A stretch of 21,460 bases of DNA from a virus, in the IMG/VR virus record IMGVR_UViG_3300044800_000169, positions 1-21,460 of that record; one strand, given 5' to 3'. Below, piece after piece: positions 3,412 to 16,142 of this stretch. The number at the start of each line of letters is the position of its first letter. The first letter of the stretch is position 1. The position numbers were made by a program, and so were the translations under genes. The notes under the pieces are model-generated. The model had not been told where the DNA came from and made no database searches. It saw only the letters and a list, made by a program, of their open reading frames with translations.

Positions 3412-3999
3412 GTGGACTTCAGCACAGTAGAAAGTGTAGCTGTTGAACTGCTTGGCAAGACGCGTCATTTGAGACTGACGCTAGCTGCGCCGGGTTGGTA
3501 TAAGACTCTGACGCACAAGCGGCTTGACGACCTGATCATGCTGCTACAGCGTCAACTGTCGGCTGGCATGGCGGCCAAACGGGTGAATGACGCGCACGCT
3601 GAGGCACTTGGCGTGCCGGTCGAGCAGTTGCCAGCGGATGAAGTCGTTGATCCTGATTCAATATTGGCTCCCAAAGACAAGGTTGATGTCGCGGACATGA
3701 TCCCGGATGTGATCGCCGCGGTTTATTGCCTGGCTCACTGGGAGGACATTGTCAACCGTCCACAGGGCAAGAAGGACGTGCCGCTCCCGGGGGAACTGAC
3801 CTATGAGGACATGAACACGCAGCTGGACCTGGACGCTTTCCCCACACTCATGGTCCTCATCGTCCAGGTCTATGCTCTCCATGCGATGAAGGCGGGCAAG
3901 GATACAGAAGGCGCGGACCCAAACGCCTCGAGCCTGGGGCCACTGAGCTCTGGGCCATCGGACGAGTCCTCTTTGGACTCACAGGAGAAGAGTTCTTAA
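3412..3999 (+). CDS. Tail assembly chaperone, G-type product
   Basis: GTG 3412 is preceded by TAGGAGGAAC, giving a strong ribosome site. The 195-residue protein is mainly helical: LTHKRLDDLIMLLQRQL near residue 45, VADMIPDVIAAVYCLAHW near 97-115, and FPTLMVLIVQVYALHAM near 143-160. It ends in a serine/glycine-rich tail of the sort read only when ribosomes do not shift frame. No direct family motif is certain; the call rests on size, location next to the tail tube gene, and the open -1 frame that continues with a conserved-looking chaperone C-domain. These proteins bind the tape measure during tail assembly and are absent from virions. Its placement before, not after, the tail tube gene is unusual. 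Confidence 0.7.
   Translation: MDFSTVESVAVELLGKTRHLRLTLAAPGWYKTLTHKRLDDLIMLLQRQLSAGMAAKRVNDAHAEALGVPVEQLPADEVVDPDSILAPKDKVDVADMIPDVIAAVYCLAHWEDIVNRPQGKKDVPLPGELTYEDMNTQLDLDAFPTLMVLIVQVYALHAMKAGKDTEGADPNASSLGPLSSGPSDESSLDSQEKSS
3936..3939 (+). promoter_or_regulatory. Candidate -1 slippery run (GGGG)
   Basis: In the G frame the codons are CTG GGG CCA. A glycine tRNA on GGG can re-pair one base back on GGG because the preceding base is G. The G frame then ends in low-complexity serine/glycine while the new frame immediately enters the conserved chaperone motif. It is a single-tRNA slip, not a classic X_XXY_YYZ heptamer, so the exact site is uncertain within 3807-3996. Confidence 0.4.
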
Positions 4000-4262
4000 C
4001 ATGCACTCCCCGAGAATGGCAAGAATTGTGGCGTGCGTGGGATTCACAACAGCATCGGAGCGAGGTCAATAGTGACTATCAGAGTGCAAAAATATGTTCG
4101 ATCTTGTGCAACCTGCAGCGGTCTCCGGAGAGCAAGGCAGCCGAGATGACAGATTTCCTGCTCTATGACAGGCCGGTGAAACACGAACAGACGGCAGAAG
4201 AGATGCTGGTGATTGCTGGGCTGTTAACTGACGCTTATGGTGGAAAAAGGGTGCTGAACTGA
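3936..4262 (+). CDS. T-frame of tail assembly chaperone, reached by -1 frameshift
   Basis: The -1 frame relative to the G-type gene is open from 3807 to the TGA at 4260-4262. From 3942 it reads TELWAIGRVLFGLTGEEFL followed by TPREWQELWRAWDS. This looks like the FW-LTPRE helix-turn-helix of TAC/GT chaperone C-domains. It has no good ATG or ribosome site of its own; a TTG at 4026 would cut off the recognisable motif. If the shift happens at the GGGG run 3936-3939, the fused G-T product is about 283 residues (176 from G plus 107). The stop overlaps nothing conserved, and the tail tube gene follows after 74 nt. Confidence 0.7.
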   Translation, partial: GATELWAIGRVLFGLTGEEFLTCTPREWQELWRAWDSQQHRSEVNSDYQSAKICSILCNLQRSPESKAAEMTDFLLYDRPVKHEQTAEEMLVIAGLLTDAYGGKRVLN

Positions 4263-4336
4263 TGAATACTGGTCGGAATATGGACAGCATTAACGCTGCC
4301 GCGTTCGTCTACTTAAACAATTCATGAGGAGATAAC

Positions 4337-5056
4337 ATGTCTCAAGCGCAAACGAGTTTCGGTGTAAGCCTGCTCCAGGGCGTTGTGCCCGTTGCAGAAA
4401 TCACTTCCCTCACGCCTCCATCATTCAACAGTGAGACGATCGACGTCACGAACCATGATAGTGTCGGGCGCATGGCTGAGTTCATCGGAGGCATGAGGAG
4501 CTCCGACGACGTCAAGATTACCTGCAACTACATTGTCGACGACCCCGGCCAGGTCCTGCTCCTCGCGGATCAGGCAGACGGGCTGGTCCACGCTTTCACG
4601 ATCAACTTCCCGACGGCATGGGGCGCGAGTTTCGACTTCTCGGCAGTCGTCCTGAAATGCGCCGTCTCGCCGTTCACCGCAAAGGGCGATGCGGTCCAGC
4701 TCGAAACCACCTTGAAGATCTCGGGTTCAGTCACGTTGAGCACGACAGCGAGCGCTGGTCTCACGACCCCGTTCTTTGTCCTCTCTCCCGCCGGAATCGA
4801 CGTTCCAGTGGCATCAGCCACGCCCGGGACGTACATCAACGACCAACTCGACGAAGCGACAGCGGTGACCGTTACCCCAACAGCCGACAATGATGGGGTC
4901 ATCGAAGTCAACGGGAAGGTTGTCCTGAGTGGCGAGGCATCCGGGACCATCACCCTTGGCGCCAAGGGAACGGTGACGACAATCACCATCACGGTCAAAG
5001 AAACAGGCAAGGGCCCCAAGACCTATACCATTCTGGTCGCCAGAGCCTCAGCCTAA
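4337..5056 (+). CDS. Major tail protein (tail tube) with C-terminal Ig-like domain
   Basis: Residues 1-145 match the siphovirus tail tube fold (lambda gpV N-domain type): VVPVAEITSLTPPSF, ETIDVTNHDS, GRMAEFIGGMRSSDDV, then GLVHAFTINFPTAWGASFDF. Residues ~150-239 form an all-beta domain ending VTTITITVKE and TYTILVARA, like cadherin-like or Big-type Ig modules that decorate tail tubes and may touch cell-surface sugars. ATG 4337 has AGGAGAT 5 nt upstream. It is followed by a 109-bp leader with a strong hairpin, so the tape measure may be separately controlled. The protein is probably the most abundant tail component, in line with its own strong ribosome site. Confidence 0.85.
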   Translation: MSQAQTSFGVSLLQGVVPVAEITSLTPPSFNSETIDVTNHDSVGRMAEFIGGMRSSDDVKITCNYIVDDPGQVLLLADQADGLVHAFTINFPTAWGASFDFSAVVLKCAVSPFTAKGDAVQLETTLKISGSVTLSTTASAGLTTPFFVLSPAGIDVPVASATPGTYINDQLDEATAVTVTPTADNDGVIEVNGKVVLSGEASGTITLGAKGTVTTITITVKETGKGPKTYTILVARASA

Positions 5057-5070
5057 CGTGAACTGTCTGG

Positions 5071-5134
5071 CAACAACAATGTACGTCGGCATCGGGAGCG
5101 GAGAATAGTCTCTGCTCCTGGATGTCGGTTGTTG
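5071..5134 (+). promoter_or_regulatory. Large RNA hairpin in the tape-measure leader
   Basis: Three nested complementary blocks can stack. Positions 5071-5077 (CAACAAC) pair with 5128-5134, 5087-5093 (CGGCATC) pair with 5121-5127, and 5094/5095-5104 (GGAGCGGAGA) pair with 5109-5118, closing a 4-base ATAG loop. A 9-base one-sided bulge separates the outer and middle stems. Only G-U wobbles are needed. No T-tract follows, so it is not a plain intrinsic terminator. A 16-codon GTG reading frame (5058-5108) ends with its TAG inside the loop, and the hairpin ends 18 nt before the Shine-Dalgarno. Confidence 0.55.
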
Positions 5135-5152
5135 GTAGGACGTCTGGCGAAG

Positions 5153-5168
5153 AGGAGGTGATGAAATA
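5153..5168 (+). promoter_or_regulatory. Full-length Shine-Dalgarno before an ATA start
   Basis: AGGAGGTGAT at 5153-5162 is complementary to the last ten bases of typical 16S rRNA. Counting from the AGGAGG core, the spacer to ATA 5166-5168 is 7 nt. The ATG at 5161 lies inside the Shine-Dalgarno and gives only ATG AAA TAG. A 15-codon frame from ATG 5122 also ends at this TAG (5167-5169), overlapping the ATA as ATAG in the same manner as the ATGA overlaps elsewhere in the operon. Confidence 0.7.
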
Positions 5169-8048
5169 GCCACGCTCGCAAAACTGATTGTTCAGATAGG
5201 GGCTTCGACAGCCGAGTTCGAATCGGCGATCAAGCAGACCTCAACGCAGCTCAAGAACTTCCAGCGAGATACGAAGGGGCTTGAACCGATCATGAACGCT
5301 GTGGGCACGGCCATTAAGGTGGTCGGGACTGCCATAATCGGAGCGTTCGTGGCCGGCGGGACCGCAGCACTTGCCTCTGGCAAGGTGATCGAACAGTACA
5401 GACTCTCGCTCACGACGCTCATGGGTAGTAGCAAGGCAGCAGGCGAGGCGGTCGCATCCGCACTGAACCTTGCCGCTAAGACCCCATTCACCGATGACCA
5501 ATTGCTTGCTGCTACCGTTGCTTTGGAAAAGTTCGGTCAGGATGCCAAGACGGTCCTTCCTCAGGTTGCGAATATGGCAGCAGCCACGAACGGCGACGTT
5601 GGACAGGCGGCAGAAGCGTACGGTCGTTTCTTGTTGGGTCAAACCAAGGCGCTGGCCTCTTTCGGTATCACAAAGGCCCAAGTCCTTACAGAGGGAGCGA
5701 AGACCGAACAGGGCATCGAGATCGCGAACCAGAAGGGGCAGATCGTCAACCAAGCTGCGTTCAATACCGCCCTGTTGTCCCTCATGGACAAACGGTTCAA
5801 GGCCGGGGCAGAATTGCAGGCCAACTCGCTGGCCGGCCTCATCAAGGGAATGAAGGACACGGGCGAGGATATTCTCAGGACCATCGCCGGGTTCTCGGAT
5901 GACGGCACGATCCGCGCTGGTAGTCTGTTCGACTTCTTCAAGCAGGGCATTACCGAAGTGTTGGCCAAGATTGAAGAGTGGAAGGCGAACGGCTCGCTGC
6001 AGGAATGGGCTGATAACGTCGGGAAGGCAATTATGGTGTTCTTCACCAACGCCAAGATCGTCTTTCTGTGGCTCGTGGATATTGCCACATGGATTGCCAG
6101 AAACTGGGAAGCGATTATTCCGGTCGTTGGTGCCGTTGTTGGGGCGTTCGTAGCCTTCAAGGCTGTCACGATCTATGTCGATGTGGCGGCCGTTGCCGTC
6201 AAACTGTTCGGGGCTGCTGTCGCCGGCACGCTCGGTCCGCTTGGCTGGATCATGGCTGCCGTTGCCGCCCTGTCGGCTGTTGTCGTCATTGCCACAGAGA
6301 AGTGGAGTGCGTACAACGCCGTCATGAACCCCAAACTGACGACAGCTTCATCGACCGCCAATATCCAGGCACTGAAAGCAGAACTGGCGCAGTTCGACAA
6401 GATCACCAAACAGAATAGTGCCACGATGGTTGCGGACGGCCATTCAACACAGGATCAGATCACTGCGTACGAAGCTGCCCGGGCGGCTGACCGCCTTGTC
6501 ATCGCAAAGAAGCTCCAGGAGAACATCGATGGAGTAAATGGGGCAGCTCGAAACAAACAGGCTACAGCACAGACGGACGCAATCGCTGAACAGAAGAGAA
6601 AGGCAGATGCGGCCGCGACCGCGATAGCGGCAGCCGAGAAACAGGGGCGCGATGCCAAGACGGCCGCAGAGAAAACGGCAGCTGATAAGGCCCTGAAGGC
6701 GGCTCAGGCTCTGGCTGCAGAAGTTCTAAAGACCAACACAGATTTAGACGATCAACTCTACAAACTCAGTCACACTCTGGTCGAGGGCCAAATCTATGAC
6801 CTCGCCAAGGCGCGCGATGCGGCGATCGCTTCCGGGGGCTCGAAGTTAACAGCAGACAAGGTCTATGTGCTTGCCGCTAAGAAGGTGTATGCCGATGCGG
6901 CGGCGGCCCAACTCATTGCCGACAACGAGGCAGCGGATAAGGCGCTGCAGGCGAAGAAAGATGCCGAGGACAAATACCTGAGTGCCCTAGCCGATTATAC
7001 CTCGAAGCAACAGGATGTCCGAAGTACTCTAGCTCGGACGATCATCGACAACTACGGCAGGCAGGAGGACGCGGCAGTCTCGGCCCTTGAATCAGAACGC
7101 GACACGGCGATTGACACCATCAATGACCAAATCGATGCGCGCAACCGGCAACTCGAGACGACCCTTGACAACATCTCCAAAGAGAAAGATGCGGCCCTGG
7201 GGATCTTCGACGTACAGATTTCGGCATTGGAAGCGGCGCATGCTGCAGCGCAACGCGCAGAGACCCTCGCCGGATTGCAGGCCAACGTCACTGCAGCCAC
7301 AACGCCAGAGGAACGCCTGCGGGCGCAGAAGGCTCTTGACAAGGAACTGGCTGATGAGGCATACAACGATAAGCTCGACAGTCTGAGAGCACAGAAAGCA
7401 GCAGCCTCCGACTTCTGGGACGCACAGACGAAGGCCGCACAGACGGTCGCTGAGTCAGATCTCCAAATACTCAAGGATCAGGTGACCGCTACCCAAAAGT
7501 CGTACGATGACCGGATCGCGTCCGTCAAGTCCTACTATGCCGACCTGATGCTCCAGCGCAATGCCGATGCGGAAGCAGAGAAACTCCTAGCCAGCAGCAC
7601 GCAAGCTGAAATCCTGGCCATGCTCGAGGGGCGGCTCGGCGACTGGAAGGCCCTCGGAGCCCAGATAAGCGACGCCATGTTCGGCGACGCACTGGCAGCC
7701 AAAGCAGCACTGCTCGCTCTTGGTGCGACAAACGTGCCAGGCACAAGCGCTCCGATCTCTCCCACGTGGAACCAGGGCGCCGGACAAGCAGGATACGGAA
7801 CCTTCCCCATCATCCAGCATGCCACTGGTGGCTACTTCACGACACCGCACATCGCGGCGATCGCAGAAGCAGGACCTGAGTTCATCGTGCCACAAAGCCA
7901 GGCAAGCGCATTCGCTGCGCGCATGGGCAGTATGCCAGTGAACGTCACCTACAACATCAATGGCGCCAGCGACATCCCGGCGATCCGTCTCGAACTGCAG
8001 CACCATGACAAGGAATTGCTAGGCATGCTACGAGGTGGCCGATGGTAA
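5166..8048 (+). CDS. Tape measure protein, apparent ATA start
   Basis: The product sets tail length and is probably ejected into the cell with the DNA. At 960 residues it is by far the longest coiled-coil protein here. From ATA 5166 it reads ATLAKLIVQIGASTAEFE, the standard N-terminus of tape measure proteins; the first ATG in frame (5292) would drop 42 conserved residues. Residues ~43-70 and ~290-380 hold hydrophobic segments typical of the membrane-inserting region. Residues ~415-770 are Ala/Lys/Glu/Asp/Gln-rich coiled coil. The C-terminus (TGGYFTTPHIAAIAEAGPEF) has the common GGxxxxPtxaxvGEaGPE-like motif. No lytic enzyme motif was seen. The frame is open upstream only to 5139. Confidence 0.9.
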   Translation: MATLAKLIVQIGASTAEFESAIKQTSTQLKNFQRDTKGLEPIMNAVGTAIKVVGTAIIGAFVAGGTAALASGKVIEQYRLSLTTLMGSSKAAGEAVASALNLAAKTPFTDDQLLAATVALEKFGQDAKTVLPQVANMAAATNGDVGQAAEAYGRFLLGQTKALASFGITKAQVLTEGAKTEQGIEIANQKGQIVNQAAFNTALLSLMDKRFKAGAELQANSLAGLIKGMKDTGEDILRTIAGFSDDGTIRAGSLFDFFKQGITEVLAKIEEWKANGSLQEWADNVGKAIMVFFTNAKIVFLWLVDIATWIARNWEAIIPVVGAVVGAFVAFKAVTIYVDVAAVAVKLFGAAVAGTLGPLGWIMAAVAALSAVVVIATEKWSAYNAVMNPKLTTASSTANIQALKAELAQFDKITKQNSATMVADGHSTQDQITAYEAARAADRLVIAKKLQENIDGVNGAARNKQATAQTDAIAEQKRKADAAATAIAAAEKQGRDAKTAAEKTAADKALKAAQALAAEVLKTNTDLDDQLYKLSHTLVEGQIYDLAKARDAAIASGGSKLTADKVYVLAAKKVYADAAAAQLIADNEAADKALQAKKDAEDKYLSALADYTSKQQDVRSTLARTIIDNYGRQEDAAVSALESERDTAIDTINDQIDARNRQLETTLDNISKEKDAALGIFDVQISALEAAHAAAQRAETLAGLQANVTAATTPEERLRAQKALDKELADEAYNDKLDSLRAQKAAASDFWDAQTKAAQTVAESDLQILKDQVTATQKSYDDRIASVKSYYADLMLQRNADAEAEKLLASSTQAEILAMLEGRLGDWKALGAQISDAMFGDALAAKAALLALGATNVPGTSAPISPTWNQGAGQAGYGTFPIIQHATGGYFTTPHIAAIAEAGPEFIVPQSQASAFAARMGSMPVNVTYNINGASDIPAIRLELQHHDKELLGMLRGGRW

Positions 8049-14943: not shown

Positions 14944-15636
14944 AACATTGTGCAGCGGGCCTCACCAAACAAGCAAACAGGGCGCGACGGTTGGAAGCCG
15001 GACACCATCGTCTGCCACATCACCGAAGGCGCCTATGGCGGCGCCGTCGAGTGGCTCTGCAATCCCAAAGCCGTGGCCTCCGCGCACTTCGTGGTGGCCC
15101 AGGATGGGCGCGTGACGCAGTTGGTCTCCATCGAGGACACGGCCTGGTGCAATGGAACAAGTCCGAACCCGGCACAGACAACCTACTCTGGTAACTCGAC
15201 ACTCAAGACCGTGCGGGATCGCAAGACCAACGCCAATCTGTACACAGTGAGCATCGAGCATGAAGGCATATGGGCAACGACAAAGGGCAGACTGACGCTC
15301 AAACAGCTCGGCACCACCATCGAGCTGGTCGCCTGGATACGCAGCGAGGTCAAGCGCATCTACAACGTGGTGATCCCACTTGACCGGGAACATATCGTCG
15401 GGCACTACCAGATCAGCCCAATAAATAAACCGAATTGCCCTGGCGCGGGATTTCAATTTGACACCATTCTGAAGGTCTTGCACGACCGAGAAACAACCGT
15501 TCCCGCAGTCACCGAGGCCCAAGTCATCAAGTGGCTGGATGACGAAGGGATCATTGTGGCATCAACCGGTGGAGACACGGCAGTTACATATCGCACCCTC
15601 AGGTGGGCCATCTACAAACTGGAACATCGAACATGA
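14941..15636 (+). CDS. N-acetylmuramoyl-L-alanine amidase (Amidase_2) endolysin
   Basis: This enzyme cuts the bond between MurNAc and the peptide stem to release phage. Counted from ACG 14941 it has 231 residues. DTIVCHITEG holds zinc ligand His26, and EHIVGHYQISP plus NCPG hold the late His and Cys ligands of the Amidase_2 family. SAHFVVAQDGRVTQLV and the conserved W-C-N-G segment lie between. The C-terminal ~50 residues (VTEAQVIKWLDDEGII onward) form a small helical tail of unknown use, perhaps wall binding. There is no signal peptide, so export relies on the holin. Starting at GTG 14950 would lose only NIV, which related enzymes usually keep after Met. The stop overlaps the next ATG as ATGA. 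Confidence 0.9.
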   Translation, partial: TNIVQRASPNKQTGRDGWKPDTIVCHITEGAYGGAVEWLCNPKAVASAHFVVAQDGRVTQLVSIEDTAWCNGTSPNPAQTTYSGNSTLKTVRDRKTNANLYTVSIEHEGIWATTKGRLTLKQLGTTIELVAWIRSEVKRIYNVVIPLDREHIVGHYQISPINKPNCPGAGFQFDTILKVLHDRETTVPAVTEAQVIKWLDDEGIIVASTGGDTAVTYRTLRWAIYKLEHRT

Positions 15637-16142
15637 GTCCGATCGTCGGGTTTCGAATGACTGCTGAGACTAAAGCAAAGATGTCTGCATCGCATGTGGG
15701 GCATTCGCATCCCGTGTCTCTAGAACAACGAGTAAAGATATCCGCAAGTCTTATGGGGCGTCCTTTGTCACCGGAGCATCGAGCGAAGATGTCCGCAAGT
15801 CATAAGGGGAAGTCTCAATCTCCCGAAACGCGGATGAAGATATCTATGGGTGAAATGGGACGCATTGTATCTCCAGAGACTCGTGCAAGAATCGCTAATA
15901 GCCTTTGGAAGGGCGGGGAAATCGTGGCCGGGCGTAGAATGAAGGCCAAACGTCGGAGTCTTGGCTTCATCTCGATGAACTCTCCCTTCTTAGGTTGCGA
16001 AGCACATCATTTCAATCCGCAAGAAATCATCCACATCCCGGTAGAATTGCACAAGAGCATTGGGCACAACATCCTTACTGGCAAGAACATGGAACGCATC
16101 AACGCATTAGCTTTCGCGTGGTACATAAAAGACTGGACATAG
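15633..16142 (+). CDS. Second NUMOD3-array homing endonuclease, divergent nuclease domain
   Basis: The 169-residue protein has about five NUMOD3 units (TAETKAKMSASHVG, SLEQRVKISASLMG, SPEHRAKMSASHKG and two more) in residues ~8-95. The C-terminal ~65 residues have GCEAHHFN, then IIHIPVELHKSIGHN and GKNMERIN. That is an HNH-like His-His-Asn arrangement with no zinc CxxC pairs, unlike the nuclease at 1777. The start ATG 15633 overlaps the amidase stop as ATGA and there is no strong ribosome site, so expression depends on coupling. The stop is followed at once by the holin Shine-Dalgarno. It is an intergenic homing endonuclease by family; activity is not shown. Confidence 0.8.
   Translation: MSPIVGFRMTAETKAKMSASHVGHSHPVSLEQRVKISASLMGRPLSPEHRAKMSASHKGKSQSPETRMKISMGEMGRIVSPETRARIANSLWKGGEIVAGRRMKAKRRSLGFISMNSPFLGCEAHHFNPQEIIHIPVELHKSIGHNILTGKNMERINALAFAWYIKDWT

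Follow-up and report, generated by a model that had tools for sequence, protein, structure and literature searches.

Start codons of the AUH kind (AUA, AUC or AUU) have been described in bacterial genes and in a phage. Ribosome profiling in Staphylococcus aureus identified AUA starts for infC, ccpN and citZ and an AUU start for cvfC1. Extended Shine-Dalgarno sequences are predicted for infC, ccpN and cvfC1 in this species, and the three non-canonical starts that were tested gave about 10% of the output of an AUG reporter in poor medium (PMC13009471). The infC gene, which encodes initiation factor IF3, starts at ATT in Escherichia coli and at ATC in Streptomyces (PMC5472188). IF3 destabilises initiation complexes on such non-canonical codons, and in the case of SigR an unusual GTC start leaves the protein less abundant than its partner (PMC5472188). 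When the ATG of E. coli rpoS is changed to ATA, RpoS falls by up to fivefold (PMC12864459). Among phages, an AUU start is predicted for orf28, a gene in the terminase region of Streptococcus thermophilus phage TP-J34, and its authors excluded a sequencing error by repeated sequencing (PMC3952083).

A phage gene for the tape measure protein (TMP), which determines the length of the tail, very probably uses the same kind of start. It lies in an IMG/VR fragment of 21,460 bases, referred to here as the window, whose relatives (contigs with L numbers) were collected by protein searches of viral_contigs. All window features described below are on the plus strand. The gene spans 960 codons from ATA to TAA (5166-8048) and matches the PHROG tail length tape measure families phrog_339, phrog_1533 and phrog_991 (best 2.6e-05). 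A tblastn search also pairs it with phage tape measure proteins, among them that of Geobacillus phage TP-84 (6e-21), and it is a long gene that follows tail tube and chaperone genes. Directly upstream is the major tail (tube) protein gene, which has an ATG start (4337-5056; PF16461, phrog_158). This is preceded by a probable tail assembly chaperone pair (3412-4262) with an in-frame -1 slippery heptamer, CCCAAAC (3918-3924), that is also present in L003, L008 and L028. The downstream frame of the pair extends to 4262 and lacks a separate start near this heptamer. No family match was found for the first frame, and the chaperone name consequently rests on position and frameshift. The tube gene follows the chaperone pair in the window, L002 and L003 and precedes it in L008, L027 and L028, which is a local gene-order swap. 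No close phage record was found by nucleotide search, and genome_contigs yielded no relative.

We assign a probability of roughly 85% to the reading that the TMP gene of the window begins at the AUA at 5166-5168 (AUC in sister phages) and not at an AUG. The possible start region is bounded upstream by an in-frame TAG (5136-5138), and an earlier sequence-only reading of the window was correct that no ATG, GTG or TTG occurs in frame between this stop and the ATG of codon 43 (5292-5294). That reading had also described a perfect 10-base Shine-Dalgarno sequence (SD) with a 7-nt spacer. The SD is present as AGGAGGTGAT (5153-5162), which is complementary to the 16S tail over ten bases and has a single exact copy in the window. 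The spacer is 7 nt when counted from the GGAGG core (5154-5158), but it is 3 nt when counted from the end of the 10-mer. The SD duplex (-19.7 kcal/mol, assuming a standard 16S 3' end) is the strongest among those of 22 window genes, the next ones reaching -12.4. Across 18 loci of the phage group and the window, SD matches of at least ten bases occur only at five TMP sites, which start with ATA, ATA, ATC, ATC and ATG, and in all five the start codon stands exactly 7 nt after GGAGG. The gene contains six ATA codons including the start, and one of these, residue 11, is an isoleucine in all relatives. Because ATA is thus used as an ordinary codon within TMP, it is not recoded as methionine.

Comparison of homologous leaders, a check that the sequence-only reading had named beforehand, gave further instances of this start in contigs from other samples. 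The 38-kb IMG/VR contig L002 was assembled separately and has 78% identity to the window in the best TMP segment found by protein search of viral_contigs. It is 98% identical over the TMP N-terminus and carries an identical GGAGGTGATGAAATAGCC, and hence the same ATA. The homologous TMP codon is ATC in L008, L027 and L028, where it stands behind nearly the same ribosome-binding site, and L003 is the only contig with ATG behind the shared site. L002 and L003 retain the SD as AGGAGGTGAT, L027 and L028 have it as AGAAAGGAGGTGA, and in L008 it is weaker (-13.5 kcal/mol). In L008 an internal frameshift or deletion (L008:4518-4714) interrupts the TMP gene, and this contig consequently provides weaker support. 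When 2.9 million viral contigs were scanned for GGNGGTGAYGAAAT-N with x-T-L-A-K-L after it, five contigs matched (ATA, ATC, ATC, ATC and ATG). Counting the window, the start is AUH in five of the six contigs with the GGNGGTGAYGAAAT site, a small set in which not all members are independent: the window and L002 share one ATA origin, and L027 and L028 share one homing cassette. The ATG of L003 behind the same site indicates that an AUH start is not required there. L020 and L021, which have the same 17-mer, were discarded as unrelated sequence, and a leader motif match at position 1485 of L041 falls inside an unrelated coding sequence.

More distant relatives place the start at the same residue. 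Their TMP genes begin with ATG in L006, L010, L013 and L004 and with GTG in L009, L015 and L038, and where the protein alignment has Met for these other relatives, the five AUH contigs have their Ile codon. TP-84 likewise has a GTG start annotated for its tape measure gene, and the position of this GTG in the alignment is that of residue 1. L004 contains a second, truncated TMP 5' end (856-1000) upstream of its full start (2184), for which a duplication, a recombination scar or an assembly join are candidate origins.

The sequence-only reading had regarded a mutation or read error at 5168 as the main rival to an AUA start. ATA is one base from ATG, and L003 carries ATG at this codon. Nevertheless, a read error or a private loss-of-function mutation of an ATG is hardly credible when the same ATA occurs in the separately assembled L002, in which about half of the synonymous sites in codons 2-42 have changed, and when three more contigs have ATC. 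Over these codons the AUH contigs have pS values of 0.44-0.74, so that about half or more of their synonymous sites have diverged. Because the contigs are so diverged, the AUH state is old. It is also shared and has A or C as its third base, and it fails as an artefact.

The same comparisons bear on whether the first 42 codons are translated. In codons 2-42, the window and L002 differ by 15 synonymous and 2 nonsynonymous changes (dN/dS = 0.027), and 16 of 17 mismatches within a 126-nt stretch occur at third codon positions. Third positions also account for 17 of 21 mismatches to L008 and 21 of 27 mismatches to L028. These patterns strongly, if indirectly, support translation of TMP codons 2-42, which evolve as protein under strong selection. 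Initiation at the ATG at 5292, with the upstream 42 codons left untranslated, is very improbable, even though no canonical start precedes this ATG in the frame and L002, L003 and L028 share it. It has no SD and is missing in L008 and L027, and it is further disfavoured because codons 2-42 show protein-like evolution and match, in the alignment, the N-terminus of every relative with an ATG or GTG start. The proposal of an AUA start made in the sequence-only reading is supported by the homologous leaders, by purifying selection on codons 2-42 and by the TP-84 N-terminus at the same residue.

An out-of-frame ATG AAA TAG (5161-5169) overlaps the TMP start, and in both the window and L002 its TAG (5167-5169) overlaps the ATA (5166-5168). 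If ribosomes started at this ATG, they could reach the TMP frame either through a -1 shift or by terminating and reinitiating on the overlapping ATA. Both routes are very improbable. The ATG at 5161 is only 2 nt from GGAGG, which is too close, and it is replaced by ACG in L008, L027 and L028. Reinitiation from this mini-frame was rejected because the ATG is not conserved, and programmed -1 frameshifting was rejected because the XXXYYYZ heptamer that it requires in the upstream frame was not found near the TMP start in any of the five AUH contigs. The window and the five related contigs contained no tRNA gene, and so no special phage initiator tRNA, and no IF3 gene was found in the phage contigs. 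Since the other routes into the frame fail, initiation at AUA or AUC itself is the simplest remaining reading.

The leader between the tube and TMP genes contains a conserved 17-bp hairpin (5088-5126). Its pairing is conserved in four contigs, where 66 of 66 cells are paired with four further G-U/A-U pair types and no double change, and the leader fold has a z-score of -3.65. Neither the leader nor the hairpin matched an Rfam family. The hairpin is possibly an mRNA processing or attenuation element. A leader peptide encoded in frame further upstream (MYVGIGSGE, then stops) was rejected because its frame is not kept in relatives, the hairpin loop being one base shorter in L002 and L013.

The AUC start has a distinctive genomic context in two contigs. 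An HNH endonuclease gene lies directly before it in L027 (2655-3345) and L028 (4356-5046), and the two copies are 99.2% identical. The similarity extends to 59 of the 60 nucleotides after the HNH gene, which include the SD, the ATC and the first codons, whereas identity is 72% in the upstream flank and about 50-80% in the downstream flank. This is the pattern that homing with co-conversion should leave behind, a process that would have carried the AUC start over to a different TMP allele. In a tree of TMP N-termini the AUH labels fall in at least two groups, and sharing of the AUC site through this homing cassette would be one reason for their separation.

The AUA or AUC codon might then be used without being adaptive, as the scar of a homing-endonuclease or tail-gene cassette that entered at the TMP start, displaced the earlier ATG or GTG, and brought a strong SD tolerating a poor codon. 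This account is the chief competitor of the dosage reading, and we judge it to fall just short of an even chance. It agrees with the near-identical L027 and L028 cassettes adjoining the AUC start within diverged flanks, with the variable gene order around the start among relatives, and with the ATG or GTG that relatives lacking a cassette have just after the chaperone stop. However, L008 has the AUC start with no HNH gene between chaperone and TMP. The AUH state has also outlasted a synonymous divergence of pS 0.5-0.7, although one transition turns ATA into ATG.

Other traces of homing genes occur elsewhere in the window. A short frame, MNTGRNMDSINAAAFVYLNNS (4263-4327), resembles the C-terminal end of the HNH genes and is probably what is left of a homing endonuclease that once lay between the chaperone and tube genes. 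Two homing-endonuclease-like genes lie among the structural genes (1777-2607 and 15603-16142; family match tested only for the second). Free-standing homing genes appear to be abundant in this phage group.

A tail requires few copies of the tape measure protein and many of the tube protein. If fMet-tRNA initiates TMP at AUA (or at AUC in the sister phages), then an SD of at least ten bases with its GGAGG core 7 nt away would hold the 30S subunit over the near-cognate codon. With imperfect pairing at the third base of the codon and a complex that host IF3 would disfavour, initiation would be weak. The strong SD may rescue this weak start, and TMP would still be made in small amounts compared with the abundant tube protein, whose gene lies directly upstream. 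Output could thereby drop in two steps between the tube and ruler genes, perhaps first at the hairpin and then at the weak start. Work in other organisms makes it plausible that the AUA start sets the TMP dose. That a lower dose is the selected role of the AUA or AUC start is a possibility to which we give clearly less than even odds. A fuller account, which we offer tentatively and consider no more probable, is that AUA and AUC were fixed to set tail stoichiometry via host IF3, which would make tail assembly dependent on host initiation fidelity, and that the extended SD and AUC also pass as a module from one TMP allele to another through co-conversion with homing endonucleases.

A gene caller restricted to ATG, GTG and TTG starts would cut 42 residues off this protein or misplace its start. 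If the dose role is true, an AUH start would be a simple translational means by which a phage produces a little tape measure protein and much more tube protein. Since AUA, AUC and AUG all occur naturally behind nearly one ribosome-binding site, these alleles can be compared directly with each other.

Each of the described systems shares some features with this locus. In the literature searched, whose coverage was incomplete, no tape measure gene was described as having an AUH start. Bacterial infC has an AUH start that is expected to be disfavoured by IF3, and in S. aureus it combines AUA with an extended SD (PMC13009471). It uses this start for autoregulation, whereas TMP is a structural gene of an uncultured phage known from sequence alone. 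The AUA starts of ccpN and citZ and the AUU start of cvfC1 in S. aureus are of the same kind and lower reporter output (PMC13009471), but these are chromosomal genes studied by profiling and reporters, in contrast to the phage tail gene considered here. The GTC start of Streptomyces sigR is likewise non-canonical and IF3-repressed and keeps one partner scarcer (PMC5472188); it differs in its codon and in having mutational proof. Phage TP-J34 offers the predicted AUU start of orf28 (PMC3952083), which is another gene, and its own tape measure gene starts at ATG. AUH starts are thus already known as a kind from infC, ccpN and a phage terminase-region gene. The TMP gene has an AUH codon at its homologous first position with no fitting canonical start and a strong, extended and properly spaced SD, and its membership in this kind is well supported at the sequence level.
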